Translations under genes and position numbers: made by a program | The notes under the pieces: model-generated | Databases searched by the model: none | What the model was told of the DNA's origin: nothing | Seen by the model: only the letters and a program-made list of their open reading frames with translations | DNA from: Pseudomonas oligotrophica | Lineage (GTDB): Bacteria; Pseudomonadota; Gammaproteobacteria; Pseudomonadales; Pseudomonadaceae | Direction of reading: 5' to 3' | Assembly (NCBI RefSeq): GCF_021726475.1 | Contig: NZ_JAKJRU010000005.1 | Coordinates: forward strand, 124,001 to 188,000 | Length of the DNA stretch: 64,000 bases | Shown: one piece after another, positions 246-27,121 of the stretch | Layout: each line of letters starts with the position of its first letter | How positions within the stretch are numbered: position 1 is the stretch's first letter

Positions 246-1771
246 GCGGTTTCGTCCACGAAGCGTTGCTCCAGCGAAGTGCGCGGGCCCTGCGGCGGCA
301 TGCCCTGGCGACAATCGAGTTTGCCGACCTGCAGGCCGGCGGCGAGCAGACGGTCGCGCAGGTTCGCCAGCTCGGCGCTGATCAGCCGGGCTGTCGCCTC
401 ACGCTCGGCCCACAGCTGGCTGGACAGGCTGCCGCGCTGGAGCTGGGCTTGCACCTGCAGCGGGCCGAGCGGGGCGAGGTCGAAGGCCAGGTCGACGCGC
501 CAGATCGGCTCGGCCTGTTCCTTGCCGGAATCACGTTGGGCTGTCTCGCGCTGCAGCTTGATCTGCAGCGGGATGATGTCCTGGCGATCGCGCATGGGCA
601 GCTCCAGCTGCCAGGTGGTCAGCTGGTTGCCGTCGGGCAACTGCTGCGACTGCGCCAGGCTCGCCAGTTGGTGCGTCTGCAAGCGGGAAACCGCCGCGGC
701 GGCGAGCTTGAGCAAGGTCTCCAGGTCGGCTTCGCCGTCCATGCCCGGCGGCAGCCGGGCGCCCAGGGGAAAGGCCAGCGCCAGCTGCTGCGCACTGGCC
801 TGGCCAAGCGCACCCAGGGCCTGGCGGGCGAAGGCGGGGAGTGCCTGGCCGAGGCCGGCACTCGCCTGGGCGGCCAGTTGCGTAGTGGCACCCGGCTGGC
901 TCGGCAGCTGCGCCAGCAGGCGCAGCAGTTGGGCCTTGATGTCGGCGGGCGGGCTGCCGACCTGGCCGGCCAGCAGTCGTGCCTCGAGAAACGCGCCGCT
1001 GGCGGCGATGGCTTGCGCCAGCGCCTTGGCATCGCCCAGCTGGGCGACCTCCGGCACCAGGCCGAGCAGTTGCGCCGCCGGCGCGCGCAGCGACTCCGGC
1101 AGGTTGCCGCCGAGGCCCTGCAGCAGGCGGAACACGCCTTCGAGCGAGGCCTGCCGGCCCTGCTGGCTCGCCAGCTGGCGGGACAGCTGCAGCTGGTCGA
1201 GCAGGCCGGTCAGCGGTACGAAGGCCAGCGCTTGGCCGCCCTGGACCTGGGCCGAGAGCAGGCTGCCGAGTGCCAGCGGCTTGCTCGACTCGATCAGCAG
1301 GGTCTGCCCGGACAGCGGCGAGTTGAGCAGCTTCAGGGCAATCTGGAAGGACGGCCGGCCGCTGGCGTCGGTGGTCTGGCCGCTGCCGACGACCTTGCCC
1401 TGCAGCAGCGTGCCGGCCGGCAGCAGGTCCAGGTCCAGGCTCTGCAGCGGCTGGGCGCGGCCGGGTTGCAGGTGCGCCATCAGGCGGCTGTCGGAGAGCG
1501 CGGCGACCGCATAGCTCGCCCCGGGCAGCACCGGTTTAGGGCTGCTCGCCTCGAGGGTGGTCTGGCGGCCGTTGTCCTGGGTCAGGCGCAGCACCAGCTG
1601 GAAGCTTTGCACCGCCTCCCTGACCGAGATGACCTCCGCCTGCGCCGTTTCGCCCGCCGCGAGCAGGCCCTGCATGGGCTGCAGCAGGCGTAGCGCGAGG
1701 TCCACCGCGGCGGTGCTGCCGCGTGTGGCCGCGGTTGGCGCAAGGGCCGGGACGCTCTTGATCTCAGTCAT
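242..1771 (-). CDS. fliK: FliK-type flagellar hook-length control protein
   Basis: This 509-residue protein is rich in Ala, Leu and Gln, with a long low-complexity N-terminal two thirds. Its C-terminal region (about 360-480) has the Flg_hook look, including the stretch LELPMRDRQDIIPLQIKLQR. FliK proteins act as molecular rulers that end hook export through contact with the FlhB C-domain, and here a FlhB-C-like gene overlaps the stop codon. I chose the ATG at 1771 (MTEIKSVPALAP); an in-frame ATG at 1864 would add 31 residues rich in Arg and Lys that do not look like family sequence. Pseudomonads usually carry another fliK in the main fliEFGHIJ-fliK-fliLMN region, so this may be a paralogue. 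Confidence 0.75.
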   Translation of the reverse strand: MTEIKSVPALAPTAATRGSTAAVDLALRLLQPMQGLLAAGETAQAEVISVREAVQSFQLVLRLTQDNGRQTTLEASSPKPVLPGASYAVAALSDSRLMAHLQPGRAQPLQSLDLDLLPAGTLLQGKVVGSGQTTDASGRPSFQIALKLLNSPLSGQTLLIESSKPLALGSLLSAQVQGGQALAFVPLTGLLDQLQLSRQLASQQGRQASLEGVFRLLQGLGGNLPESLRAPAAQLLGLVPEVAQLGDAKALAQAIAASGAFLEARLLAGQVGSPPADIKAQLLRLLAQLPSQPGATTQLAAQASAGLGQALPAFARQALGALGQASAQQLALAFPLGARLPPGMDGEADLETLLKLAAAAVSRLQTHQLASLAQSQQLPDGNQLTTWQLELPMRDRQDIIPLQIKLQRETAQRDSGKEQAEPIWRVDLAFDLAPLGPLQVQAQLQRGSLSSQLWAEREATARLISAELANLRDRLLAAGLQVGKLDCRQGMPPQGPRTSLEQRFVDETA

Positions 1772-1834
1772 CTTCCCCTCAAATGCGCTTACAACCTTTA
1801 ACCTTCGCCACCCTCGGTATCGCGGCTTGGCATG

Positions 1835-1876
1835 TATAATCGCGACCGCCCGGCTGGCCGCCAAATTATAGCGGCC
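1835..1876 (+). promoter_or_regulatory. Putative -10 and leader hairpin before the ccm operon
   Basis: A perfect TATAAT lies at 1835-1840, about 70 bases before the GTG of ccmA. No good -35 is visible at 16-18 bases upstream, so an activator or an upstream TG may compensate. The transcript would begin with an inverted repeat GGCCGC (1856-1861) / GCGGCC (1871-1876) around an A/T-rich loop. Confidence 0.45.
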
Positions 1877-1906
1877 GGGCCTTATTCATCTTGAGGTGCC
1901 GCCAGC

Positions 1907-2542
1907 GTGACAACCCCTTTCCTCGAAGCCGTGGCGCTCGCCTGCGAGCGGGATTGGCGTCTGCTGTTCGACGGCCTCGATCTGCGCCTCGAGCCGGGGG
2001 ATATGCTGCAGGTCGCCGGCCCCAACGGCAGTGGCAAGACCAGCCTTCTGCGCCTGCTCTGCGGGCTGATGCAGCCGACCGCCGGCCAGGTGCTGCTCAA
2101 GGGCGCATCGCTGCAGGCCCAGCGCGGCGAGCTGGCGCGCAACCTGCTGTGGATCGGCCACGCCGCCGGCATCAAGGGCCTGCTGACCGCCGAGGAGAAC
2201 CTGGCCTGGCTCTGCGCGCTGCATCAGCCGGCCAGCCACGAGGCCATCTGGCAGGCCCTGGCCAGCGTGGGATTGCGCGGCTTCGAGGATGTTCCCTGCC
2301 ACACCTTGTCGGCCGGCCAGCAGCGCCGCGTCGGCCTCGCCAGGCTGTACCTGTCGCCGCCGCCGCTGTGGATCCTCGACGAACCCTTCACCGCGCTGGA
2401 CAAGCACGGCGTCGCCCAGCTCGAGGCGCACCTGGCGCAGCATTGCGAGGCCGGCGGCATGGTGGTGCTGACCACCCATCACAGCCTGGCGCAGATGCCG
2501 TCGGGCTACCGCGAACTGGATCTAGGGCAGCGCGCCGCATGA
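1907..2542 (+). CDS. ccmA: CcmA, ATPase of the CcmABCDE heme-handling ABC complex
   Basis: This 211-residue ABC ATPase has a Walker [10 protein letters not shown] near residue 39, the signature [14 protein letters not shown] near 129 and Walker [13 protein letters not shown] near 149. In system I cytochrome c maturation CcmA/CcmB hydrolyse ATP so that holo-CcmE is released from CcmC. It is the first gene of a complete ccmABCDEFGHI operon. The start is GTG at 1907, and its TGA overlaps the ATG of ccmB. Length and motifs are normal for the family. Confidence 0.95.
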
Positions 2543-3210
2543 GCAACGTCTTCACGCTTCTGCTGGCCCGCGAGAGCCGCCTGCTGTTCCGCCGGCCGGC
2601 CGAGCTGGCCAACCCGCTGGTGTTCTTCGCCATCGTCATCGCGCTATTCCCGCTGGCGGTCGGCCCCGAGTCGCAACTGTTGCAGAGCATTTCCCCCGGG
2701 CTGGTCTGGGTCGCCGCGCTGCTGGCCGTGCTGCTCTCGCTGGACGGGCTGTTCCGCAGCGATTTCGAGGACGGCTCGCTCGAACAGTGGGTCGTTTCGC
2801 CGCACCCGCTTCCGCTTCTGGTGCTTGCCAAGGTGCTGGCACACTGGGCGTTTTCCGGCCTGGCGCTGGTGCTGCTGGCGCCCCTGCTCGGCCTGATGCT
2901 GGGCCTGCCGCTGCGGACGCTGCCGGTGCTGCTGCTGTCGCTGCTACTGGGCACGCCCATCCTCAGCCTGCTCGGCGCAGTCGGCGCCGCGCTGACCGTC
3001 GGTCTCAAGCGAGGCGGGTTGCTGCTGGCCCTGCTGATCCTGCCGCTGTACATCCCGGTGCTGATCCTCGGTAGCGGGGCGCTCCAGGCGGCGCTGCAAG
3101 GACTGCCCGCTGCCGGCCATCTGTTATGGCTGGCCAGCCTGACCGCGCTGGCGGTTACTCTGACCCCCTTTGCGATTGCCGCTGGCCTGAGAATCAGCGT
3201 CGGCGAATGA
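2539..3210 (+). CDS. ccmB: CcmB, heme exporter membrane subunit
   Basis: This 223-residue protein is highly hydrophobic with about six predicted membrane spans. It begins [20 protein letters not shown], a typical CcmB start. It pairs with CcmA and CcmC in the inner membrane to load and release heme on the periplasmic chaperone CcmE. The ATG at 2539 overlaps the ccmA stop (ATGA). I chose this start over upstream in-frame codons because those would lie inside ccmA. Confidence 0.95.
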
Positions 3211-3250
3211 GGTTTTTCGACAGCCGGAGGCCCTGCGGCCTCCCCGAGCG

Positions 3251-4018
3251 ATGAGTCTAGCGATGAATTGGACGTGGTTTCACAAGCTGGGTTCGCCCAA
3301 ATGGTTCTATGAGATCAGTGGCCGCTGGCTGCCGTGGCTGGCCTGGGCAGCGCTGCTGCTGATCGCCGTCGGCACCGTCTGGGGGCTGGCTTTCGCACCG
3401 CAGGACTACCAGCAGGGCAACAGCTTTCGCATCATCTATATCCACGTGCCGGCCGCCTTCCTCGCCCAGTCGATCTACGTGATGCTGGCGGTGGCCGGCC
3501 TCGTCGGGCTGGTGTGGAAGATGAAGCTGGCCGATGTCGCGCTGCAGCAGGCCGCGCCGATCGGTGCCTGGATGACCTTCATCGCGCTGCTGACCGGGGC
3601 CGTCTGGGGCAAGCCGACCTGGGGCGCGTGGTGGGTCTGGGATGCCCGCCTGACGTCGATGCTCATCCTCCTGTTCCTGTACTTCGGTGTGATTGCGCTG
3701 GGCCAGGCAATCAGCAACCGTGACAGCGCGGCCAAGGCCTGCGCGGTGCTGTCGATCGTCGGCGTGGTGAACATCCCGATCATCAAGTACTCGGTCGAGT
3801 GGTGGAACACGCTGCACCAGCCGGCCACGTTCAAGGTCACCGAGAAGCCCGCGATGCCGGTGGAGATGTGGTTGCCGCTGCTGGTGATGGTGATCGGCTT
3901 CTACTGCTTCTTCGCCGCGGTGCTGCTGATGCGCATGCGCCTCGAGGTGCTCCGCCGCGAGGCCCGCAGCAGCTGGGTGAAGTCCGAGATCAGAACGCTG
4001 GTGGGGAAAGACGCGTGA
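3251..4018 (+). CDS. ccmC: CcmC, heme lyase/transfer protein for CcmE
   Basis: CcmC is a six-span membrane protein that delivers heme to CcmE. The 255-residue product contains the tryptophan-rich periplasmic signature [12 protein letters not shown] (about 125-136), shared by CcmC/CcmF-type heme handling proteins, flanked by conserved histidines (IYIHVP near 63, TLHQPA near 189). A second in-frame ATG at 3263 ([10 protein letters not shown]) is an equally possible start and matches recalled homologues better. A 40-base gap separates it from ccmB. Confidence 0.95.
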
Positions 4019-7627: not shown

Positions 7628-8838
7628 TCGATTTCTGGATAGCTGCCGGCCTCCTGCTGCTGGCGGCCCTCGCCATCCTGCTGCTGCCCATCCTGCGGGG
7701 ACGCAGGGTCCAGGCGGAAGAGGACCGCACCGCGCTCAACGTCGCCCTCTACCAGGAGCGCCTGGCCGAGCTGGCGAGCCAGCACGACGCCGGCATGCTC
7801 ACCGAGGCGCAGTACCAGGCCGGCAAGGCCGATGCCGCACGCGAGCTGCTGAGCGATACCGAGGATGCCGAGCCGCGGCGCAGCGGCCGGCTCGGGCGTG
7901 GCGTGCCGCTGGTCGCCGCCTTGCTGGTGCCGCTGCTCGGCTACGGCCTGTACCTGCATTGGGGCGCCAGCGACAAGCTGCAGTTGGCTCGCCAGTTCGC
8001 CGAGCAGCCGCGCTCGATGGAGGAAATGGTGACGCGCCTCGAGCAGGCGGTCGAGGCGCAGCCGGATTCGGCCGAAGGCTGGTACTTCCTTGGGCGTGCC
8101 TACATGAGCCAGGAACGCCCGGCCGACTCGGCCAGGGCCTTCGAACGGGTGATCGCGCTGGCCGGGCGCCAGCCGGAGCTGCTCGGGCAGCTGGCCCAGG
8201 CCCGTTACTTCGCCGGCGAGCGCCAGTGGAACGACGAATTGCAGGCACTGGCCGACGAGGCGCTCCGTGGCGACCCGAACGACGTCACTACCCTCGGCCT
8301 GCTCGGTATCGCGGCCTTCGAAGAGAAGCGTTACGCCGATGCCATCGGCTTCTGGGAGCGGCTGGTCGCTACCCTGCCGGAGCAGGACCCGTCCCGCGAG
8401 GCGATCCAGGGTGGCATCGCCCGCGCCCGCCAGGAACTCGGCGATGCGGGTCCGGCGACGGCGGCCAAGCCCGCGGCCGCGCCGGCGGAGGCGGTTCAGT
8501 TGAAGGTGCAGGTCCGGCTGGCGACCGAGCTGGCGGACAAGGTCAGCGCCGAGGACAGCGTGTTCGTCTTTGCGCGTGCGGTCTCCGGCCCGGCGATTCC
8601 GCTGGCGGTCAAGCGTATCCGCGTGGCCGATCTGCCGGCCGAACTGACCTTGGGCGATGCCGACGCGATGATGCCGCAGCTCAAGCTGTCGAATTATGCC
8701 GAGGTCCAGCTGACCGCGCGGATCTCGCGCGAAGGCAATGCAACCAAAGGGCAGTGGATCGGTCAGAGCGAAGTGCTGAAACCGACTGCGCAGGCGGGCG
8801 ACATCCGTCTGGTCATCGACAGTCCCGAGGGGCAATGA
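7624..8838 (+). CDS. ccmI: CcmI (CycH), apocytochrome c chaperone with TPRs
   Basis: The 404-residue protein starts with two membrane spans (about 4-22 and 97-115) separated by a cytoplasmic loop with a leucine-zipper-like region. It continues with a periplasmic TPR domain (about 140-280, for example [20 protein letters not shown]) and a C-terminal beta-rich domain. CcmI binds the C-terminal helix of apocytochrome c and presents it to CcmFH. It is the last ccm gene and its ATG overlaps the ccmH stop. Confidence 0.93.
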
Positions 8839-8864
8839 GGCGCAAGACGCGCGTGGTGAGCATC

Positions 8865-9287
8865 ATGGGCAAGCAAAGGAAAGCCGCCTGGCTGGGGCGG
8901 GGCGGGGCGATCGCGGGGATGGCGCTGCTGCTGAGCGCCTGTGCCGGAACACCCTATGATCATCGACCGGCGCCCGAGCCGTCCCGGCCGATCCCGCGCA
9001 GCGCTCCCAGCGGCCCGGTCATCGCACCTCCGCCGATCCAGACCCCGCAGGCACCGCGCGCGCCCAGCGTGCAGCGCAGCCACCCACGCTATGCGCCGCC
9101 GCCTTACGGCAGCGCCCACTGGGACAATCGCCTTGGCGTCTACGTGGTCGAGGGCACCGAGCTGTTCTACCGCGACCGTCTCTACTATCGCTGGGATGGC
9201 GACTGGTTCTGCGCCGGCCGCCCCGATGGTCCCTGGGAGCCGGTGGCGCCGCCGAGCGTACCGCCCGGATTGCGCGGCCACCGTTGA
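8865..9287 (+). CDS. Small proline-rich lipoprotein of unknown function
   Basis: The 140-residue product begins MGKQRKAAWLGRGG, followed by a hydrophobic core and the lipobox LLSAC, so it is probably lipidated at that Cys. The middle (about 35-80) is Pro/Ala-rich and likely extended. The C-terminal third, with repeated Tyr/Trp (LFYRDRLYYRWDGDWF), looks like a small folded domain. I chose the ATG at 8865, preceded by GGTGAG, because it gives a standard signal peptide. An ATG at 8835 overlapping the ccmI stop would add ten basic residues and is possible. I do not recognise a function. Confidence 0.75.
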   Translation: MGKQRKAAWLGRGGAIAGMALLLSACAGTPYDHRPAPEPSRPIPRSAPSGPVIAPPPIQTPQAPRAPSVQRSHPRYAPPPYGSAHWDNRLGVYVVEGTELFYRDRLYYRWDGDWFCAGRPDGPWEPVAPPSVPPGLRGHR

Positions 9288-9321
9288 GCGCGCCGGCTGG
9301 CACGTTCGGCCCATCTGCCGC

Positions 9322-9348
9322 TAAAGCCGCGCCCGGTGATGCCGATAA
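9322..9348 (+). promoter_or_regulatory. Sigma-28 (FliA) promoter of fliT
   Basis: TAAA at 9322-9325, a 15-base spacer and GCCGATAA at 9341-9348 match the flagellar sigma-28 consensus (TAAA-N15-GCCGATAA) exactly, including spacing. Transcription would start near 9355, about 57 bases before the fliT ATG. Confidence 0.85.
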
Positions 9349-9411
9349 GGAAAGTGTCCGCGCTCGCTACCGAGCGCGGCCCAGCCACTGAGTGCATCGG
9401 AGTCGATCGTC

Positions 9412-9708
9412 ATGAATGCTTGCGTCAAACGTCTCGAGGAAACCGGCAGCGCCTTGCGCAGTGCGCTGGCGAACCAGGACTGGGCGGCGATCAGCATGCT
9501 CGATCGCGAGTGCCGGCTGGCCGTCGAGCAAGCCATGCACGAGCCGCAGCGCGACGAGGCGCTGGTACGCCAGAGCATGCAGGCGTTGCTCGATCTGTAC
9601 CGCGACCTGGTCGGCAGCTGCCAGAGCGAGCAGCGGCGGATCGCCGCCGAACTGCTGCAGCTCAACCAGTCCAAGCAGGGCGCCAAGGTCTATCAGTTGT
9701 TCGGCTGA
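9412..9708 (+). CDS. fliT: FliT-like flagellar export chaperone
   Basis: This 98-residue protein is almost entirely helical and charged, with no membrane segment and the C-terminal QGAKVYQLFG I associate with the FliT protein encoded just before fleQ in pseudomonads. FliT chaperones the filament cap FliD and in enterics also restrains the master regulator. ATG at 9412 has GGAG nine bases upstream. It lies behind a consensus sigma-28 promoter and before fleQ, but without the fliC-flaG-fliD-fliS genes that normally precede it. Confidence 0.75.
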   Translation: MNACVKRLEETGSALRSALANQDWAAISMLDRECRLAVEQAMHEPQRDEALVRQSMQALLDLYRDLVGSCQSEQRRIAAELLQLNQSKQGAKVYQLFG

Positions 9709-10091
9709 AACGCCGATAGCGTTTCCCCTCGCGGCGCAATGTCGCACTCCAGCCTGCGGGCCCTGGCCCAGACATGACGGAACTTTCCTGCCCCTGGCGG
9801 CGACCTAGTTAGAGAGGGTGCGCCGCGCGTGCAATATCCCTGCAATTCGTGGTCTTAATCGCTGTAATTTTGACTGGTTTGCAACCTGGTCCGGCTTTGC
9901 GCGATAGCTGCACGATCAGCGCTGCCGCTCACTCATCTGCTGTGCACATCTACACCTTTAGCCGAAGTGGTCTGTCAGTAATTTGACTCGGTTCTCTTTT
10001 TCTAATTAACTAGCGGCTCGCTGCCGATGGTGATCGTCCTCAGGGATTCGAGCGCAGGCATCCTCCCAGAAATCAGGGCCCTATAAACAAG
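9709..10091. other. 383-bp intergenic region before fleQ
   Basis: No gene is seen. A short hairpin AAACGC-N5-GCGTTT (9708-9724) just after fliT may be a weak terminator. Two TTGACT hexamers occur (9870-9875 and 9983-9988). The second has a poor TTAACT at 17 bases (10006-10011) and is the better guess for the fleQ promoter. The stretch 9830-10010 is more A/T-rich than its surroundings, as expected for a regulatory region. Confidence 0.4.
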
Positions 10092-11558
<1,467 letters not shown>

Positions 11559-11567
11559 TCCTCTGCA

Positions 11568-11588
11568 GGTGACCGTTCGCCGGTCACC
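11568..11588. repeat. Inverted repeat between fleQ and fleS
   Basis: GGTGACCG (11568-11575), loop TTCGC, CGGTCACC (11581-11588) form a perfect 8-bp hairpin about 10 bases after the fleQ stop. There is no T-run, so it could be a weak fleQ terminator or a protein-binding palindrome near the fleSR promoter. Confidence 0.5.
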
Positions 11589-11607
11589 CCGCTGCCTGCG
11601 GCCGGCA

Positions 11608-11623
11608 AGGCACGAACATTGCT
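11608..11623 (+). promoter_or_regulatory. Sigma-54 promoter of fleSR
   Basis: AGGCACGAACATTGCT fits TGGCACG-N4-TTGCW with one mismatch. GG is at 11609-11610 and GC at 11621-11622, exactly 10 bases apart. Established work in P. aeruginosa places fleSR under FleQ and RpoN, which agrees. Transcription should start near 11634. Confidence 0.85.
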
Positions 11624-11669
11624 CCAGGTTCCCGGACGTTCCATTTCTTTGACGGAGCCGAGCGGAGCC

Positions 11670-12854
11670 GTGACCACAGCCGCCAGCCACGCAGTTGCCC
11701 ATCCCCCGAGCGCCACGCCGCCTGAACAGGCGCTGGAAGAGCTGGCACGCCTGTCGCGGCAGCTCGACATTTCCTACGGCCAGGTCGAGGCGCGGGTCGC
11801 CGAGCTGACCGGCCAGCTCGAGGCCGCCAGCGCACAGCGCCGCCAGGATATCGCCGAGAAGGCCCGCCTGGCGCAGCGGCACCAATACCTGCTCGACCTG
11901 CTGCCCGGCGGCGTGGTGGTCATCGACGGCCAGGGCGTGATCGACGAGGCCAACCCGGCCGCCCACGAGCTGCTCGGCGGCGAGCTGGTGGGCCGGCTCT
12001 GGCGCGAGGTCATCGCCCGCTGCTTCGCGCCGCGCGGTGACGATGGCCATGAGGTTTCCCTGCGCGACGGCCGCCGCCTGTCCATCGCCACCCGATCGCT
12101 GGGCGACGAGCCAGGCCAGCTGGTCCTGCTGACGGACCTCACCGAAACCCGGCGCCTGCAGGACCAGCTGTCGCGTCATCAGCGCCTTTCCTCGCTGGGG
12201 CGGATGGTCGCGTCCCTGGCGCACCAGGTGCGTACGCCGCTGTCCGCGGCGCTGCTGTATGCCAGCCATCTGCAGCAAGGTGGCCTGTCCGACGAGCAGC
12301 AGCGACGTTTCGCCGAGCGCCTCAAGGCGCGCCTGGGCGACATGGAGCGCCAGGTGCGTGACATGCTGGTGTTTGCCCGCGGCGACCTGCCGCTCGGCGA
12401 CCGCCTGGGCCCGGCCGAGCTGTTCGACGCCCTGCGCGAGGCCGGCGAACCGCTGGTCGAGGGCTGCCAGCTGCGCTGGCAGTGCGACGCCGGTGCCGGC
12501 GAGCTGTTGTGCAACCGCGAAACCCTGGTCGGTGCGATCTGCAACCTGCTGGAGAATGCCCGGCAGGCCGCCGGCGAGCAGGCCCGTCTGAAGGTGCATG
12601 CCTATCGCCGCGGCGACGAGCTGCGCCTGTGCATCAGTGACAACGGCCCGGGTATCGAGCCGGCTGTACTGGCGCGGCTGGGCGAGCCCTTCTTCACCAC
12701 CCGTGCGGCCGGAACCGGGCTTGGCCTGGCCGTGGCCATGGCGGTCGTCCGAGCGCATCACGGCAGCCTGCGGCTGCGTTCGCGGCTTGGCCGCGGTACC
12801 TGCGTCCAGCTCCGCCTGCCGCTGTTGTTCACGCAGGTGCGTGATGAGCGCTGA
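11670..12854 (+). CDS. fleS: FleS, flagellar sensor histidine kinase
   Basis: The protein (394 residues from this start) is soluble, with no membrane span. It has an N-terminal coiled coil (about 20-60), a PAS-type domain (LLDLLPGGVVVIDGQG, about 73-88), a HisKA box LAHQVRTPLS with phospho-acceptor His near 185, and a HATPase domain with N box LLENARQ, DNGPGIEP and GTGLGLAVA. FleS phosphorylates FleR to switch on the class III hook/basal-body genes. I chose GTG at 11670. A TTG at 11619 lies inside the -12 element of the sigma-54 promoter and cannot be used; TTG at 11649 remains possible. The stop overlaps fleR. Confidence 0.92.
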   Translation: MTTAASHAVAHPPSATPPEQALEELARLSRQLDISYGQVEARVAELTGQLEAASAQRRQDIAEKARLAQRHQYLLDLLPGGVVVIDGQGVIDEANPAAHELLGGELVGRLWREVIARCFAPRGDDGHEVSLRDGRRLSIATRSLGDEPGQLVLLTDLTETRRLQDQLSRHQRLSSLGRMVASLAHQVRTPLSAALLYASHLQQGGLSDEQQRRFAERLKARLGDMERQVRDMLVFARGDLPLGDRLGPAELFDALREAGEPLVEGCQLRWQCDAGAGELLCNRETLVGAICNLLENARQAAGEQARLKVHAYRRGDELRLCISDNGPGIEPAVLARLGEPFFTTRAAGTGLGLAVAMAVVRAHHGSLRLRSRLGRGTCVQLRLPLLFTQVRDER

Positions 12855-21379: not shown

Positions 21380-21455
21380 GTCCCCTTCGTCTAGTGGCCT
21401 AGGACACCGCCCTTTCACGGCGGTAACAGGGGTTCGAGTCCCCTAGGGGACGCCA
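21380..21455 (+). tRNA. tRNA-Glu (UUC)
   Basis: The 76-base cloverleaf starts GTCCCCTTCGTCTAG and ends GGGGACGCCA with encoded CCA. The anticodon TTC is in CCCTTTCACGG and the T-loop GGTTCGAGTCC is standard. Confidence 0.98.
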
Positions 21456-21460
21456 AATCT

Positions 21461-21536
<76 letters not shown>

Positions 21537-21654: not shown

Positions 21655-21930
21655 TCAGGTGTACTTGGTGAAGATGCTGCGCACGCGCTCCAAAGCTTCG
21701 TCCGTGGCCTGGCCGCCATCGGCCAGTGCTTCTTCCAGCAGGCAGGTCAGCATCAGCCGATAGCTCTTCTCCAGCGCGCTGCGCGCAGCGGAAAACTGCT
21801 GGGCGATGGCTTCGCAGTCCTCGCCGCGCCTGATCATCGCCTGGATGCCCCTGATCTGCCCCTCGACCCGTGCCAGGCGCTTGAGCATTGCCTGTTGTTG
21901 CTCGGGCAGCTTGGTGGGCTCGTCATTCAT
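21655..21930 (-). CDS. CsoR/FrmR/CstR-family repressor, histidine-free variant
   Basis: The 91-residue protein has the all-helical family pattern (LKRLARVEGQIRGIQAMI, then GEDCEAIAQQFSAARSALE). Members bind GC-tract palindromes and sense Cu(I), Ni/Co, formaldehyde or persulfide. Only two cysteines are present, Cys39 and Cys63, and there is no histidine at all. A gapless alignment by eye with FrmR/CsoR puts Leu at the metal His position and Ala at the second CsoR Cys position. A metal site is therefore unlikely and thiol sensing is favoured, though the Cys spacing (24) differs from CstR (29). It is divergent from bigR in a sulfur cluster. Confidence 0.88.
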   Translation of the reverse strand: MNDEPTKLPEQQQAMLKRLARVEGQIRGIQAMIRRGEDCEAIAQQFSAARSALEKSYRLMLTCLLEEALADGGQATDEALERVRSIFTKYT

Positions 21931-22031
21931 CTGTCTTCATCCTGGCGATTCAGGGCAGGCGCGGTGGCCTGCATGATAGTCATTAGCATCGCGCATCCTA
22001 ACGAGACTCCTGGCCGATGGCTATGGCCACG

Positions 22032-22071
22032 TTGACACGCGTGGCGTCTAACGATATATATATTAATATAT
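22032..22071 (+). promoter_or_regulatory. bigR promoter with overlapping AT palindrome (operator)
   Basis: TTGACA (22032-22037), a 17-base spacer and TATATA (22055-22060) form a near-consensus sigma-70 promoter. A perfect 14-bp palindrome ATATATTAATATAT (22058-22071) overlaps the -10 and the start site, where a repressor would block transcription. BigR/ArsR-type repressors bind AT-rich palindromes at their own promoters, so autoregulation is the likely role. Confidence 0.75.
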
Positions 22072-22092
22072 TGTTTTTGGTGAAACTGTTTG

Positions 22093-22413
22093 ATGTCCTC
22101 CACGCCGTCACTCGACATGGCGCAGCTGCGTACCAACGCGGCCGCTGCCGGCCAGTTGCTCAAGGCGCTGGCCAATCCGGATCGCCTGTTGCTGCTCTGT
22201 CAGCTTTCGCAGGGTGAGCGCAACGTCAGCGAACTGGAGGCGATGCTCGGCATCGTCCAGCCGACACTGTCCCAGCAGCTGGCCGTGCTGCGTCGCGAGG
22301 GGCTGGTCGCCACTCGCCGCGAGGGGAAGCAGATCTACTACCGGATCAGCAGCGAGCCGGCGCTGGCAGTCATCGAAACACTCTATCGACAGTTCTGCGG
22401 AGGCGAGAAATGA
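22093..22413 (+). CDS. bigR: BigR/SqrR-like ArsR-family persulfide-responsive repressor
   Basis: The 106-residue winged-helix protein has LLKALANPDRLLLLCQL, recognition helix region QPTLSQQLAVLRREGLV and wing TRREGKQIYYRI. Its only cysteines are Cys36 and Cys102, 66 residues apart, exactly the spacing of the redox pair of BigR (Cys42/Cys108), which forms a disulfide or tetrasulfide when sulfide rises. ArsR metal motifs such as ELCVCDL are absent. It leads a plus-strand operon of two YeeE/YedE carriers and DUF2892. ATG at 22093 is chosen; a TTG lies one codon upstream. Confidence 0.88.
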   Translation: MSSTPSLDMAQLRTNAAAAGQLLKALANPDRLLLLCQLSQGERNVSELEAMLGIVQPTLSQQLAVLRREGLVATRREGKQIYYRISSEPALAVIETLYRQFCGGEK

Positions 22414-22844
22414 CCATCGATTGGGCTGGCTTCACCCCCTGGCCAGCGCTGGCCGGCGGAGCGCTGATCGGGCTCGCGGCGGCGCTGTTCGTGCTGCTCA
22501 ACGGCCGCATCGCCGGTATCAGCGGCCTGCTTGGTGGCTTGCTGGAGCGCCACACCGAGGGGCGGGCGGAGAAGGCCCTGTTTGTGCTCGGCCTGGTGCT
22601 CGCGCCGCTGGCATGGGTGCTGTTTGCGCAACTGCCCGAACCGGACTTCCAGGTCGGCTGGCTGGGCACGCTGGTCGCCGGCCTATTGGTGGGCATCGGT
22701 ACCCGCTATGGCTCCGGTTGCACCAGTGGGCATGGCGTCTGCGGCCTGTCGCGTCTGTCGCCGCGCTCACTGGCGGCGACCCTGGCCTTCATGGCGGCCG
22801 GTTTCGCAACCGTCTTTGCGCTTCGTCATCTTTTCGGGGGTTGA
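22410..22844 (+). CDS. YeeE/YedE-family sulfur-compound carrier, first half
   Basis: This 144-residue membrane protein (about four spans) has the family motif [12 protein letters not shown] near residues 101-112. YeeE/YedE (DUF395) proteins are thiosulfate or other sulfur-species carriers whose conserved cysteines relay the substrate. In this half-size form two genes together probably equal one full-length carrier. The ATG overlaps the bigR stop (ATGA). Confidence 0.9.
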
Positions 22845-22846
22845 AC

Positions 22847-23266
22847 ATGCGCAAACTCACTGCATTCGTCGCCGGCCTGGTGTTTGGTTTCGGCCTGCTG
22901 CTGTCAGGCATGGCCGATCCGGCCAAGGTGGTCGGCTTCCTCGACCTGGCCGGTAGCTGGGACCCGTCCCTGGCGCTGGTGATGGCTGGTGCGATCGGAG
23001 TGGCGCTTCTGCCGTTCACCTGGGCCAGGCGTCGCGAGCGCAGCCTGCTCGGGGCGCCGATGGCGCTGCCGCGCAAGCGCGAGCTGGATGGACGGCTGAT
23101 CGGCGGCAGCCTGCTGTTCGGGGTCGGTTGGGGCATCGCCGGCATCTGTCCGGGGCCTGCGCTGGCGCTGCTGGTGACCGGCTACTGGCAAGTGCTGCTG
23201 TTCGTGTTCGCCATGCTCGGCGGCATGGCGCTGTTTTCCGCGCTGGAACACCGGCGCAACCACTGA
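22847..23266 (+). CDS. YeeE/YedE-family sulfur-compound carrier, second half
   Basis: This 139-residue membrane protein starts MRKLTAFVAGLVFGFGLLLSGM, with motif GMADPAKVVGFLD and the conserved Cys in GWGIAGICPGPAL (about 103-115). It begins two bases after the first half. In BigR-controlled clusters the same two halves are usually found together, and they are thought to move thiosulfate, sulfite or a related product across the inner membrane. Confidence 0.9.
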   Translation: MRKLTAFVAGLVFGFGLLLSGMADPAKVVGFLDLAGSWDPSLALVMAGAIGVALLPFTWARRRERSLLGAPMALPRKRELDGRLIGGSLLFGVGWGIAGICPGPALALLVTGYWQVLLFVFAMLGGMALFSALEHRRNH

Positions 23267-23281
23267 CCCGGGGAGGTCATC

Positions 23282-23473
23282 ATGAAAAGCAATGTCGGAA
23301 TGGTCGATCGTACGCTGCGGATCCTGGTCGGACTGGCGCTGATCGCGCTCAGCCTGACGGGCGTGATCGGGGCTTGGGGCTGGATCGGCCTGCTGCCCCT
23401 GGCCACGGGCATCTTCCGCGTTTGCCCTGCCTATTCGTTGCTGGGCATCAGCACCTGCGGACGCAAGGCCTGA
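23282..23473 (+). CDS. DUF2892 (YgaP transmembrane-domain) protein
   Basis: The 63-residue protein starts MKSNVGMVDRTLRILVGLAL with two predicted membrane helices and the ending CPAYSLLGISTCG. DUF2892 is the membrane part of YgaP-like rhodaneses and is often a free protein in persulfide clusters. A good Shine-Dalgarno (GGGGAGG) lies nine bases upstream. It closes the plus-strand sulfur operon. Confidence 0.88.
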   Translation: MKSNVGMVDRTLRILVGLALIALSLTGVIGAWGWIGLLPLATGIFRVCPAYSLLGISTCGRKA

Positions 23474-23478
23474 AGGTC

Positions 23479-23510
23479 CAGGGCCGTCGACCAGGCGGTC
23501 GACGGCCCTG
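23479..23510. terminator. Strong hairpin between convergent sulfur operons
   Basis: A perfect 14-bp stem (23479-23492 with 23497-23510) with loop AGGC lies between the stops of the DUF2892 and DUF2141 genes. There is no T-run, but its position suggests a shared bidirectional terminator. Confidence 0.6.
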
Positions 23511-23517
23511 CCATCAC

Positions 23518-23943
23518 TCAGTAGCGCATCTGCAGGTCGATGTGCACCGCTTGTGCACCGACCTCGAAGGCACTGTCGTCGAATCCCGGCGGCCCCATCA
23601 CCTTCGGGTTGTTGGACAGGGCGTAGCCCTCGGTGGGGAACATGCCGAGGCGCCTGTCCAGTTCGCCGTTGCCGTTCTCGTCGTGGTAGGCCATGACCGC
23701 GTAGCGCCCGGGCGGTAGCGCGTCGAACACCACCGTAACCTCGCCGGCGGCGGCCGGGACCTTCTTCGTCACGTAGGCCAGGCGTTCCTTGCGAAAGGTC
23801 TTGGGCTCGGCATAGACCCCGACGCTCAGTTGGCCGCGCTCGTGCTCCACACCCTGCAGCGTCACCCTGAGTTCCTGCGCCTGGCCGGCGCCGGCTGCCA
23901 TGGCGCCCAGCGCGCCGATCATGAGGATCGCTCGTTTCATCAT
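23518..23943 (-). CDS. DUF2141 periplasmic protein
   Basis: The 141-residue protein has a signal peptide (MMKRAILMIGALGAMAAGAGQAQ) and then a beta-rich DUF2141 domain (LRVTLQGVEHERGQLSVGVY, then DALPPGRYAVMAYHDENGNG), including an acidic DENGNGELD loop that looks like a calcium or metal site. Function is unknown. It is last in the minus-strand sulfur operon, 19 bases after the rhodanese. ATG at 23943 or 23940 can be the start. Confidence 0.85.
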   Translation of the reverse strand: MMKRAILMIGALGAMAAGAGQAQELRVTLQGVEHERGQLSVGVYAEPKTFRKERLAYVTKKVPAAAGEVTVVFDALPPGRYAVMAYHDENGNGELDRRLGMFPTEGYALSNNPKVMGPPGFDDSAFEVGAQAVHIDLQMRY

Positions 23944-23962
23944 TGCTTGCGGTTCCAGTCGT

Positions 23963-24343
23963 TCAGTCGAAATCGATTCCGGCCGGCCTGGCCACGGGCA
24001 TCTGCGCGGCGCACCAGGCATCGAAGCCGCCGGCCAGCGAGGCAACCTGCAGGTATCCCATGTCCTTGAGTGAGGCGGCCGCCAGCGCGGCGCGCCCGCT
24101 GGTCTTGCAATAAATAAAGATAGCCAGGTCGCGGGATTCGAGTTCCGGCATGCCGGTGAGCTTGAATTCCAGCACGCCACGTGGAATGTTCACGGCGCCG
24201 GGTATATGCCCGGCAGCGTATTCGTCGGCCTCGCGGACGTCGATCACCACATCGGCCGCGTTGATCGCTGCCTGGGCATCGTTGAGGGTGACTTCGTGGA
24301 TTCGGCTCCTGGCCTGCTCGACCAGATCATGGGCGGTTCGCAT
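23963..24343 (-). CDS. Single-domain rhodanese (sulfurtransferase)
   Basis: The 126-residue cytoplasmic protein has one rhodanese domain with VVIDVREADEYAAGHIPGAVNIPRG-type features (written here in outline) and the active-site loop with Cys79 (IYCKTSGRA). It probably moves persulfide sulfur between glutathione persulfide and other acceptors. Its start overlaps the end of sulP by 17 bases, so it is translated from the same mRNA. Confidence 0.92.
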   Translation of the reverse strand: MRTAHDLVEQARSRIHEVTLNDAQAAINAADVVIDVREADEYAAGHIPGAVNIPRGVLEFKLTGMPELESRDLAIFIYCKTSGRAALAAASLKDMGYLQVASLAGGFDAWCAAQMPVARPAGIDFD

Positions 24344-26120
24344 GGTGGGTTCCTCGGTGGTGCTCCGGAGTGGGCGAGGGCGTGCCCGCCGTTCCGGGCG
24401 ATTCGGTTGTGCTGGCCGGGTCCAGGCAGGCCAGCGCCTCGTACTGGCTGATGAATACCTGGCCGCCGAAGTGTTGCAGGAAGGACGCGCGGCGCAGTTG
24501 ATCCATCACCGGTCCCTTGACCTCCGACAGGTGCAGCTGGATGCAGGCCGCATGCAGGCGCAGGGCGATGGCTTCGAGGCTCTCCAGCGCGCTGGCGTCG
24601 ATGAGGTTGACCCCCGAGCACATCAGGACCAGGTGGCGCGTCCGCGGACGGGCCTCGACCAGCGCGGCGACGCGATCTTCGAGGTAGCGGGCGTTGGGGA
24701 AGTACAGGCTCTCGTCGACGCGTACAGAGAGCACCGACTCGCTCTGCTGCACGGCAAATCGTTCGACATTGCGAAAGTGCTGCGTGCCGGGCAGCAGGCC
24801 GACCACGGCGATGTGCGGTTGGCTGGTGCGCCAGAGGAACAGCAACAGCGACAGCCCGACGCCGAGCAGGATGCCGGCCTCGACGCCGATGGTCAGCACG
24901 CCGAGCATGGTGGCGATCATCGCGCTGGCGTCCTGGCGCGAATAGCGCCAGGTGCGCCTGAGCGCGCCGAGGTCGACCAGGCTGAGCACTGCGACGATGA
25001 TGGTCGCCGCCAGCACCGCATGCGGCAGGTTGCGGAACAGCGGGGTGAAGAACAGCACGGCCACGGCGATGCCGATCGCGGTCAGCGCCCCAGCGAGTGG
25101 GGTTTGCGCGCCGGCGTCGAAGTTCACCACCGAGCGGGCGAAGCCTCCGGTGACGGGGAAGCCGCCGCTGAATGCCGCAGCGATATTGGCGCTGCCGAGG
25201 GCGACCAGTTCCTGGTTCGGTTCGATGCGTTCGCGCCGCTTGGCGGCCAGCGTCTGGGCCACGGAGACGGATTCGACGAAGCCGATCAGGCTGATCAGCA
25301 CGGAGGCCGGCAGCAGGGTCTCGGCAAGCTGCAGGTCCAGGGTCGGCAGGCTGAAGGGCGGCAACCCGCCGGGGATCGCGCCGACCACCTTGACGCCTTG
25401 CTCGGCCAGCCCCAGCAGGCTGACGGCAGCGATCGACAGCAGCAGCGCCAGCACCGGGCCGATGCGTGCCAGGGTGCTGGCCAGCTCCCGGCGCATGCCG
25501 AGCGTCATCAGCCAATTCGAGGCGGAACGACGCATCAGGTAGAGAAAGCCGAGGCTGGTGGCTCCGATCGCGAGGGTCGGCCCGTGCAGCTGCGGCAGGC
25601 CGGTGACCAGGTTGCGCAGCAGCGTCTGGGCGTTGTCGCCTTCCAGGGCGATGCCGAGGATGTGCTTGAGCTGGCCGAGGGCGATCAGTACGGCCGAGGC
25701 GCTGATGAAGCCCGACGTCACCGGGTGGCTGAGGAAGTTGGCGAGAAAGCCTAGGCGCAGCGCTGCCATCAGCAGCATGAACAGGCCGGAGAGTGCGGCC
25801 AGCAGCAATGCGGCGCCGGCCTGTTCGGCGCTGCCCGGGGCGAACAGCGGGGCGATGGCCGTGGCGGTCATCAGCGAGACCACGGCGACCGGCCCGACCG
25901 CCAGGGTGCGGCTGGTGCCGAACAGCGTATAGGCCAGCAACGGCAGGATGCTGGCGTAGAGTCCGGAGACCGGCGGCAGCCCGGCGAGCATGGCGTAGGC
26001 CAGGCTCTGCGGAATCAGCATCAGGGTGACGATCAGCGCCGCAATCAGGTCCTTGCCGGCCGTGCTCCGGTCATAGCGGCGCAGCCAGGTCAGGCACGGC
26101 AACAGGCGGCTGGCGCGCAT
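24327..26120 (-). CDS. SulP-family anion permease with STAS domain
   Basis: The 597-residue protein has about 12 membrane spans starting with DLIAALIVTLMLIPQSLAYAMLAGLPPVSGLY-type SulP sequence and a C-terminal STAS domain (about 440-560, with LMCSGVNLIDASALESLEAI). SulP proteins carry sulfate, bicarbonate or organic anions. In this operon, sulfite or sulfate export or import is the likely job. The ATG at 26120 is 48 bases after the dioxygenase stop. Confidence 0.92.
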   Translation of the reverse strand: MRASRLLPCLTWLRRYDRSTAGKDLIAALIVTLMLIPQSLAYAMLAGLPPVSGLYASILPLLAYTLFGTSRTLAVGPVAVVSLMTATAIAPLFAPGSAEQAGAALLLAALSGLFMLLMAALRLGFLANFLSHPVTSGFISASAVLIALGQLKHILGIALEGDNAQTLLRNLVTGLPQLHGPTLAIGATSLGFLYLMRRSASNWLMTLGMRRELASTLARIGPVLALLLSIAAVSLLGLAEQGVKVVGAIPGGLPPFSLPTLDLQLAETLLPASVLISLIGFVESVSVAQTLAAKRRERIEPNQELVALGSANIAAAFSGGFPVTGGFARSVVNFDAGAQTPLAGALTAIGIAVAVLFFTPLFRNLPHAVLAATIIVAVLSLVDLGALRRTWRYSRQDASAMIATMLGVLTIGVEAGILLGVGLSLLLFLWRTSQPHIAVVGLLPGTQHFRNVERFAVQQSESVLSVRVDESLYFPNARYLEDRVAALVEARPRTRHLVLMCSGVNLIDASALESLEAIALRLHAACIQLHLSEVKGPVMDQLRRASFLQHFGGQVFISQYEALACLDPASTTESPGTAGTPSPTPEHHRGTHHANRP

Positions 26121-26167
26121 CACCGCTGGCTCCGCTGCGGAGCGCCGACGGGCGCCGGCGTGGCCAT

Positions 26168-27031
26168 TCAGAGCACGTCCAGCGGGATCTTCAGGTAGCG
26201 GGTGCCGTTGTCCTCCGGCTCCGGCAACTGGCCGGCGCGCATGTTGATCTGCACCGACGGCAGGATCAGCGCCGGCATGCCGAGGCTGGCGTCGCGCTCG
26301 TGGCGCATGGCGACGAACTCGTCCTCGCTGATGCCGTCGTGCACATGCACGTTGCGCTGACGTTCCTCGCCGATGGTGGTCTCGTAGAGAAATTCCTCGC
26401 GCCCCGGCGCCTTGTAGTCGTGGCACATGAACACGCGGGTGAAGTCCGGCAGCTGGAACAGCCGCTGGATCGAACGGTACAGGGTGCGTGCGTCGCCGCC
26501 GGGAAAGTCGCAACGGGCAGTACCGTAGTCCGGCATGAACAGGGTGTCGCCGACGAAGACGGCGTCGCCGACCAGGTAGCTCATGCACGCCGGGGTGTGC
26601 CCGGGCGTGTGGATGGCCATGGCCTGGAGTCCACCGATGCGGAAGGTCTCGCCGTCGGCCAGCAGGCGATCGAACTGGCGGCCGTCGGTGGCAAAGCCCG
26701 CGCCGGCATTGAACAGCCGGCCGAAGGTCTGCTGGACCCGGGTGATCTGGTCGCCGATGGCGATCTTCCCGCCCAGTTGATGGCGGATGTAGGCCGCGGC
26801 GCTCAGGTGGTCGGCATGGACGTGGGTCTCGAGCAGCCACTGCACCTCCAGGCCCTGCTCGCGCACGTAGGCGATCAGCCGGTCGGCGTTCTGGTGCGAG
26901 GTGCGCCCCGAGGCCGGGTCGTAGTCCAGCACCGGGTCGATCACGGCGCAGGCGCGTGTCTGGGGGTCGCTCACCACGTAGCTGTAGGTGAAGGTGGCGG
27001 TGTCGAAGAAGGCTTCGATATGGGCGTACAT
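26168..27031 (-). CDS. Metallo-beta-lactamase-fold persulfide dioxygenase (Blh/ETHE1-like)
   Basis: The 287-residue protein has the metal motif THVHADH (His70, His72, Asp74, His75), the second ligand in HTPGHTPACMSYLVGD, the Asp ligand region FVGDTLFMPDYG and a late His in VFMCHDYKA. ETHE1/PDO enzymes use one Fe(II) to oxidise glutathione persulfide to sulfite. Blh, the partner of BigR, has this architecture. It is first in the minus-strand operon with sulP, rhodanese and DUF2141. GAGG precedes the ATG. Confidence 0.92.
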   Translation of the reverse strand: MYAHIEAFFDTATFTYSYVVSDPQTRACAVIDPVLDYDPASGRTSHQNADRLIAYVREQGLEVQWLLETHVHADHLSAAAYIRHQLGGKIAIGDQITRVQQTFGRLFNAGAGFATDGRQFDRLLADGETFRIGGLQAMAIHTPGHTPACMSYLVGDAVFVGDTLFMPDYGTARCDFPGGDARTLYRSIQRLFQLPDFTRVFMCHDYKAPGREEFLYETTIGEERQRNVHVHDGISEDEFVAMRHERDASLGMPALILPSVQINMRAGQLPEPEDNGTRYLKIPLDVL

Positions 27032-27046
27032 GGCGACCTCGTCCTG

Positions 27047-27062
27047 ATACCCGCGGGGGTAT
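27047..27062 (-). promoter_or_regulatory. Perfect palindrome ATACCC-N4-GGGTAT before the dioxygenase gene
   Basis: ATACCC (27047-27052), GCGG, GGGTAT (27057-27062) is a perfect 6+6 inverted repeat in the 5' UTR, 15 bases before the dioxygenase ATG. G/C tracts flanked by A/T are typical operators for the CsoR/FrmR/CstR family, and a member of that family is encoded at 21655-21930. Confidence 0.6.
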
Positions 27063-27092
27063 GTTTCGAGTCAGATGTTAACCGGATATTTG

Positions 27093-27121
27093 GTTATATG
27101 CTTAGTCGTATTTGTTATTAA
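27093..27121 (-). promoter_or_regulatory. Putative promoter of the persulfide dioxygenase operon
   Basis: Minus strand: TTAATA (27121-27116), 17-base spacer, TATAAC (27098-27093). The -10 lies within an AT-rich imperfect palindrome (27086-27099, ATAT at both ends) that resembles the bigR operator. Transcription would start near 27086. Confidence 0.5.

Follow-up and report, generated by a model that had tools for sequence, protein, structure and literature searches.

Candidate BigR and CsoR-family repressor circuits in a reactive-sulfur island of Pseudomonas oligotrophica

In Streptomyces coelicolor the CsoR-family repressor ScCsoR binds ATACC-N6-GGTAT upstream of pdo, the gene for persulfide dioxygenase, and is released by polysulfide, with both of its cysteines being needed (PMC7533328). 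The two cysteines lie 29 residues apart in ScCsoR (C37/C66, PMC7533328), and the same spacing is found in CstR (C31/C60, PMC9774590) and in TTHA1953 of Thermus thermophilus (C39/C68, PMC10318464). In Acinetobacter, BigR controls yeeE-yedE-pdo2 (PMC7315123). Here we describe a locus in a 64,000-nucleotide stretch of Pseudomonas oligotrophica DNA (contig NZ_JAKJRU010000005.1, referred to below as the window; the host genome is 3.98 Mb in 20 contigs), where a csoR-like gene and bigR are transcribed away from each other beside genes for half-carriers and a persulfide dioxygenase (Table 1). The locus probably serves as an island for detoxifying reactive sulfur under two repressor circuits, in which BigR would govern the carriers and the CsoR-like protein the pdo operon, each being released by persulfide or polysulfide.

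An earlier note on this DNA had placed nine named genes in one block and had two unrelated repressor genes diverging within it, and both descriptions were borne out, since family profile searches of the window found all nine as open frames, each matching its family, and a 159-bp gap separates the csoR-like gene (minus strand) from bigR (plus strand). On the plus strand bigR is followed by two half-carrier genes and then by the gene of a DUF2892 protein, and a second run on the minus strand consists of pdo, sulP, rhodanese and DUF2141 genes. Related loci were collected with a cut-off of E <= 1.4e-29 for csoR-like orthologues (the next PF02583 matches stand at E 1.5e-8), and 80 of the 88 csoR loci outside the window were fetched, leaving out G249, G176, G110, G219, G223, G245, G233 and G040. 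Since the identical layout, DUF2141 apart, recurs in 20 of these 80 loci, the grouping of the genes is not due to chance.

The operons differ in the operator that precedes them. At pdo stands ATACCCGCGGGGGTAT (ATACCC-N4-GGGTAT), the sole perfect match of this motif in the window and in the whole genome, and with it an ATACC-N6-GGTAT operator at pdo or a sulfurtransferase operon, as expected of a circuit of the CstR or ScCsoR type, is present. The likeness to S. coelicolor covers the family of the repressor, the same 16-bp operator frame at pdo, and a linked rhodanese and exporter (PMC7533328). When one mismatch was allowed, the genome contained five sites of the CsoR-type motif and two of a reversed control motif; the scans of window and genome and the count over related pdo loci given below, with the reversed motif as control, led us to reject a chance origin of the pdo operator. 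In front of bigR lies an AT-rich palindrome, ACGATATAT-N6-ATATATTGT, which overlaps the putative -10 element of bigR-yeeE-yeeE-DUF2892 and is the only match in the genome to the consensus ACAATATAT-N6-ATATATTGT at up to three mismatches. Therefore, with a single perfect CsoR-type site at pdo and a single AT palindrome at bigR, each operon has an operator type to itself. A sigma-70 scan, which requires T at the last -10 position, listed no promoter, and the bigR promoter given in Table 1 was read from the letters directly.

That one sensor serves each operon, as the earlier note had suggested, is well supported by this operator anatomy and by a comparison across about 100 genomes. Loci from genomes without csoR were represented by 40 pdo loci of 37 genomes, taken in order of identity down to G121, with six fragmented or partial genomes (G205, G073, G118, G097, G104 and G081) passed over. 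One pdo was scored per fetched locus, pdo rows below 60% identity were excluded from the operator counts and the pair test, and G099 and G113, whose csoR has no cysteines, did not contribute a pdo to the count. A pdo of at least 60% identity was found within 8 kb of csoR in 45 of the 80 fetched loci; with the window included, the operator (at most two mismatches, at most 300 nt from pdo) was present in 35 of the 46 linked loci, and likewise in 18 of 20 pdo loci lying elsewhere in genomes with csoR. When pooled, 53 of 66 pdo loci in csoR-bearing genomes (64 genomes) had the operator vs 1 of 40 in the others (37 genomes; Fisher p = 1.5e-16, genus-stratified z = 4.9), while the reversed motif at two mismatches occurred in 2/66 and 0/40 rows. 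Nine of the 13 exceptions carry the operator before yeeE1. The other four pdo rows belong to three genomes, two of the rows being the pdo copies of G100, and in the csoR loci of these genomes (L104, L110 and, in G100, L103) a perfect site precedes DUF2892. When the operon head, either pdo or yeeE1, was scored in independent phylogenetic pairs, seven agreed, none disagreed and two were equal (p = 0.016). The AT palindrome (up to three mismatches) precedes bigR in all 23 rows from genomes with csoR and in 9 of 16 rows from genomes without it, as counted for bigR of at least 60% identity in the fetched stretches.

Several results weigh against so simple a partition. The same pair test restricted to the pdo promoter was not significant (three agree, none disagree, six equal; p = 0.25), and the genome holds four further one-mismatch CsoR-type sites with no sulfur gene recognisable by eye in their 1.5-kb flanks. 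All seven misses of the AT palindrome are bigR rows of a single genus without csoR (g18). Three loci (L040, L047 and L048) that have no bigR of their own retain the palindrome in the csoR-yeeE1 gap; a more distant BigR (56–57% identity) is encoded elsewhere in these three genomes. Where the orthologue has lost both cysteines (L098 and L100), csoR is still followed by a symmetric site, ATACTC-N4-GAGTAT, which means that the operator is independent of the cysteines. Finally, the pdo promoter has no good -35 element, and a conserved TCTAAGCATATAACC block (TCTATGCATAGAACC in others) stands there instead, which suggests a further input. Because this block replaces the -35 and is also found near pdo in 3 of the 40 rows without csoR at up to two mismatches, a third regulator of pdo is possible. 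As a general sulfur-starvation site the block found no support, its sole genome match at up to two mismatches being the one at pdo.

The CsoR-like protein scores 71.7 bits against PF02583 (cut-off 22.8) and is the only member of this family in the host genome. In an AlphaFold2 monomer model (mean pLDDT 85) it forms helices at residues 10–35, 39–70 and 76–90, and its best PDB sequence match by E-value is the CstR structure 7MQ3. Of 81 orthologues, 79 have both Cys39 and Cys63, and the remaining two, L098 and L100, have neither; Leu occupies column 64 in every one of the 81, and at column 68 Ala, Thr or Val is found. At columns 39, 63, 64 and 68 the group thus reads C, C, L and then Ala, Thr or Val, in comparison with CDHC (one CKHC) in copper CsoR-type rows, CGHH in RcnR, CSHT in FrmR and CEAC in S. 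pneumoniae CstR. The His64 of copper CsoR, RcnR and FrmR and the Cys or His at 68 of CsoR and RcnR are replaced here by Leu64 and Ala68, and of the CstR cysteine pair (columns 39 and 68, corresponding to C31/C60 of Staphylococcus aureus) only the first is present, with Ala68 and the second cysteine at 63. Judged by its residues, the protein does not qualify as a sensor of copper, nickel or formaldehyde, nor as a canonical CstR. CstR of S. aureus and S. pneumoniae (7MQ1-3; PMC9774590) has the same family, fold and type of target, namely sulfur detoxification genes, but its second cysteine lies five residues later in the helix, and the structure alignments give 31–37% identity. ScCsoR differs in the same manner, with its cysteines at 37 and 66 (spacing 29) as compared to 39 and 63 (spacing 24) here (PMC7533328). 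The protein resembles a known sulfur sensor in a Gram-negative form, with one of two key cysteines relocated. Both cysteines are on one modelled helix (residues 39–70), and from the helix rise we infer that they would be some 36 Angstrom apart in one protomer, so that any link between them must be interprotomer.

BigR matches NF040642 with E 4.6e-31 and 106.8 bits, below the equivalog cut-off of 155, and its PDB matches are the 6O8 series (SqrR; 6O8N is so named in PMC9774590) and the BigR structure 3pqj. In an alignment to the 13ct/6o8l chain it has cysteines at both SqrR sensing positions (C41 and C107), as do the listed relatives, and it is the only BigR in the host genome at E <= 1e-12. 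Both regulators are predicted to be cysteine-based sensors of sulfane sulfur. The BigR/SqrR operons of Xylella and Acinetobacter (PMC5823870, PMC7315123) likewise have a BigR-type repressor with two sensing cysteines, and yeeE-yedE carriers are present in Acinetobacter; in these operons the dioxygenase gene (Blh or PDO2) is under BigR as well, whereas pdo of the window belongs to a separate operon that has a CsoR-type operator. On sequence grounds, it is likeliest that BigR in the window keeps the carriers but not the dioxygenase, unlike in Acinetobacter. For the dioxygenase itself, Pdo combines the metallo-beta-lactamase fold with the Blh dioxygenase domain, matching positions 142–423 of the 423 of NF040641 with 401.6 bits, below the cut-off of 625 bits, which applies to a two-domain (Blh) model; as only the dioxygenase half was matched, no DUF442 transferase domain is seen in Pdo.

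By analogy, the CsoR-like protein most likely acts on pdo-sulP-rhodanese in the way ScCsoR acts on its own pdo. In the scheme we propose, BigR would bind the AT-rich palindrome that overlaps the -10 of its own promoter and so repress bigR-yeeE-yeeE-DUF2892, a predicted sulfur-carrier operon, and the CsoR-like protein would bind ATACCC-N4-GGGTAT just downstream of the putative pdo -10 and repress pdo-sulP-rhodanese together with, in this genome, DUF2141. Persulfide or polysulfide may then react with the cysteine pair of each repressor, presumably linking Cys39 and Cys63 between protomers in the CsoR-like protein, and release it from the DNA. With both repressors released by sulfane sulfur, the carriers could transport, and the dioxygenase oxidise, their predicted substrates.

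Could the CsoR-like protein instead be a metal or formaldehyde sensor that lies beside sulfur genes by accident? PF02583 does include copper, nickel and formaldehyde sensors, and in the fold search, where the top 20 PDB rows were InrS, CsoR, FrmR and CstR structures, InrS, CsoR and FrmR came level with or ahead of CstR. We regard this as very improbable, given that columns 64 and 68 hold His (Tyr in one) followed by Cys, His, Glu or Thr in the compared CsoR-, RcnR- and FrmR-like rows as against Leu and Ala, Thr or Val in the group described here, and on these two columns metal and formaldehyde sensing were rejected. In addition, the CsoR-type operator is located at pdo and yeeE and not at an efflux or formaldehyde gene, and its frame equals that of a sulfane-sulfur sensor, though copper CsoR sites are similar too (PMC7533328). 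A cascade in which BigR also directly controls csoR appears unlikely. The shared 159-bp gap does contain the AT palindrome, and a weaker CsoR-type site before csoR that is usual in relatives was not found in the window, so something else may set the csoR level; yet the palindrome covers the bigR -10, on the far side of what the relatives suggest to be the csoR promoter region, and the genome scan at up to three mismatches placed no AT palindrome at pdo.

A different matter is whether the two repressors have separate inputs at all. Both could respond redundantly to the same persulfide pool, the split being a by-product of joining two mobile cassettes; we lean away from this explanation, while considering it a real possibility. 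Cysteine pairs in both repressors fit it, and so do the carriers, whose operator is of the BigR type in some genomes and of the CsoR type elsewhere, as if the regulators were exchangeable, and the many genomes that have one regulator without the other (34 with csoR only and 64 with bigR only, of 298). On the other hand, the divergent pair is kept in 27 genomes, so some benefit of having both is likely. The wiring would be the same under redundancy as under the two-circuit scheme that we prefer.

Related circuits are known from other bacteria. Acinetobacter baumannii likewise has two in one cell, FisR and BigR, the second acting on yeeE-yedE, but FisR is a sigma-54 activator at a separate locus and not a CsoR-family repressor divergent from bigR, and BigR keeps pdo2 (PMC7315123). 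Bacillus licheniformis likewise combines a CstR-like repressor of a sulfur-oxidation cluster, YrkD, with a second regulator, but NreBC is a two-component system acting in a cascade, and YrkD has the two CstR cysteines, unlike the protein here (PMC9918477). TTHA1953 is likewise CsoR-like, has two cysteines and acts on sulfur oxidation genes; it differs by its C39/C68 pair, its TAC/GTA half-sites and its control of distant sox genes, and no response to NaHS was seen (PMC10318464). For ScCsoR no BigR partner is described in the available part of PMC7533328. Among the matches listed in a search of open-licence PMC papers, no title concerned a CsoR-family regulator of pdo in Pseudomonadaceae. The circuit is of a known kind, and what appears to be new, as far as sequence can tell, is CstR-like control in Gram-negative bacteria with a moved cysteine, combined with BigR.

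Table 1. Features of the island (window positions).
Feature	Position	Strand	Basis or remark
csoR-like repressor gene, 91 aa, Cys39/Cys63 subfamily	21655-21930	-	PF02583, E 7e-20
Putative bigR promoter, TTGACA, 17 nt, TATATA	22032-22060	+	read from sequence
AT-rich palindrome, proposed BigR operator	22051-22074	.	conserved upstream of bigR
bigR, ArsR-family persulfide-type repressor	22090-22413	+	HTH_5, NF040642; TTG start listed, ATG at 22093
YeeE/YedE half-carrier 1	22410-22844	+	PF04143, weak (27.5 bits vs cut-off 27)
YeeE/YedE half-carrier 2	22847-23266	+	PF20398 (DUF6691)
DUF2892 / YgaP-like membrane protein	23282-23473	+	PF11127
DUF2141 protein, sporadic member	23518-23943	-	PF09912
Rhodanese, single-domain, CKTSGR loop	23963-24343	-	PF00581; loop from translation
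SulP-family transporter with STAS domain	24327-26120	-	PF00916, PF01740, TIGR00815
pdo, persulfide dioxygenase, ETHE1-like, stand-alone	26168-27031	-	PF00753, NF040641 C-terminal half
CsoR-type operator	27047-27062	.	15 nt upstream of pdo ATG
Proposed pdo -10, TAACAT (TAAGAT in many relatives)	27075-27080	-	upstream-region comparison
Conserved block ACTAAGCATATAACC over expected pdo -35, unexplained, possible activator site	27092-27106	-	upstream-region comparison

On a wider scale, we are inclined to see a separate gammaproteobacterial clade of CsoR-family sulfur sensors with the relocated 39/63 pair, paired with BigR in the genus of the window, in which carrier transport and dioxygenase removal are switched separately, the regulators swap operons over evolution, and the operator also precedes a cytochrome bd-type oxidase operon in some relatives. 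The tree places the pair-bearing group, with L098 and L100, on one side of a branch with support 98/91, as obtained from few columns that include the cysteine columns and with a bootstrap that had not settled. Of 274 genomes searched across the class, 14 gave a match at E <= 1e-10, including two from the window's own genus. Six of the other class-wide proteins (L261–L266) carry the same cysteine pair; the genes of four have yeeE, pdo or sulP no more than 1.5 kb away, and L261 and L266 have a one-mismatch CsoR-type operator. The nearest row outside, L267, has Cys39 but Thr63.

Within the family, csoR orthologues occur in 89 of 298 sampled genomes. The neighbourhood survey that the earlier note had called for did find both sensors together, in 55 of the 298 genomes (bigR cut-off 1e-35), with neither in 145. 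A divergent csoR/bigR pair within 1.5 kb is present in 27 genomes, all of the window's genus, and the arrangement is therefore recurrent and not a one-off; positions were entered for 28 of the 55 genomes for this count, the other 27 showing no bigR of at least 60% identity beside csoR. In ten loci (L066, L071, L074–L076, L079, L081, L083, L090 and L101) csoR lies inside the yeeE operon, and all ten have a CsoR-type operator (at most one mismatch) and no AT palindrome (at least five mismatches), so the same carriers have changed their regulator. In 22 of the 23 same-genus loci with the window's layout (L032–L049, L051, L052 and L054–L056, the miss being L032) a weaker CsoR-type site, commonly ATGCCCCTACCCGTAT, precedes csoR at up to three mismatches, a level which shuffles reached in 80 of 1620 trials. 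ScCsoR also represses itself (PMC7533328), whereas csoR of the window has no such site.

If the assignment is correct, sensing of the CstR type would reach into these Gram-negative bacteria, with the cysteines in another geometry, and the group would offer a natural test of which placements of two thiols still allow sulfane sulfur to be sensed. With the partitioned island, the question of why bacteria keep two sulfur repressors could be asked within one cell, and from the operator a regulon can be predicted at once for the 89 sampled family genomes that carry the csoR-like gene.

The earlier note had further drawn attention to DUF2141 with its acidic loop, a view that we did not uphold. A DUF2141 gene lies within 8 kb of csoR in only 5 of the 80 related loci, and the loop, DENxNGELD, is found in four of five other copies; DUF2141 was thus rejected as a core member and is a sporadic passenger, not a characteristic member of the island. 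Another gene varies between pdo and sulP, where L033 (12087–13835) and L105 (5246–6994) have DUF442 fused to a FAD oxidoreductase-like domain according to Pfam, and the gap size suggests the same gene in other relatives. A search at E <= 1e-40 did not find this fusion gene in the genome of the window, and of eight genomes searched one had it. The island begins directly after tRNA-Glu and tRNA-Gly (window 21380–21536), and among 15 related loci that were scanned, 7 have a tRNA-Gly no more than about 0.3 kb from csoR. In L078 (7986–9616) and L085 (7989–10268) csoR heads an operon with a rhodanese, a TauE-type exporter and a distant metallo-beta-lactamase protein, a perfect operator preceding csoR in L078.

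In some relatives a CsoR-type site stands before a small gene and cytochrome bd-type oxidase genes; these sites were spotted by inspection, without a control. L102 has a one-mismatch site at 11821 with oxidase genes at 8834–11836 (PF01654 and PF02322), and one-mismatch sites are also found in L050 (site 3582, genes 1731–3597) and L059 (site 2962, genes 1114–2977), where the oxidase was assigned by resemblance; the csoR cysteines are intact in all three. Cytochrome bd-type oxidase genes are likewise near a csoR orthologue with intact cysteines in L104 (10591–11727). In L098 and L100 (7980–11350) the cysteine-free csoR is followed by cytochrome bd oxidase genes identified with Pfam, the symmetric site, which has two mismatches, lying between them at 8370. 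Perfect CsoR-type sites in L106 (13494) and L060 (7803) are near genes that by eye resemble those of peroxiredoxins.

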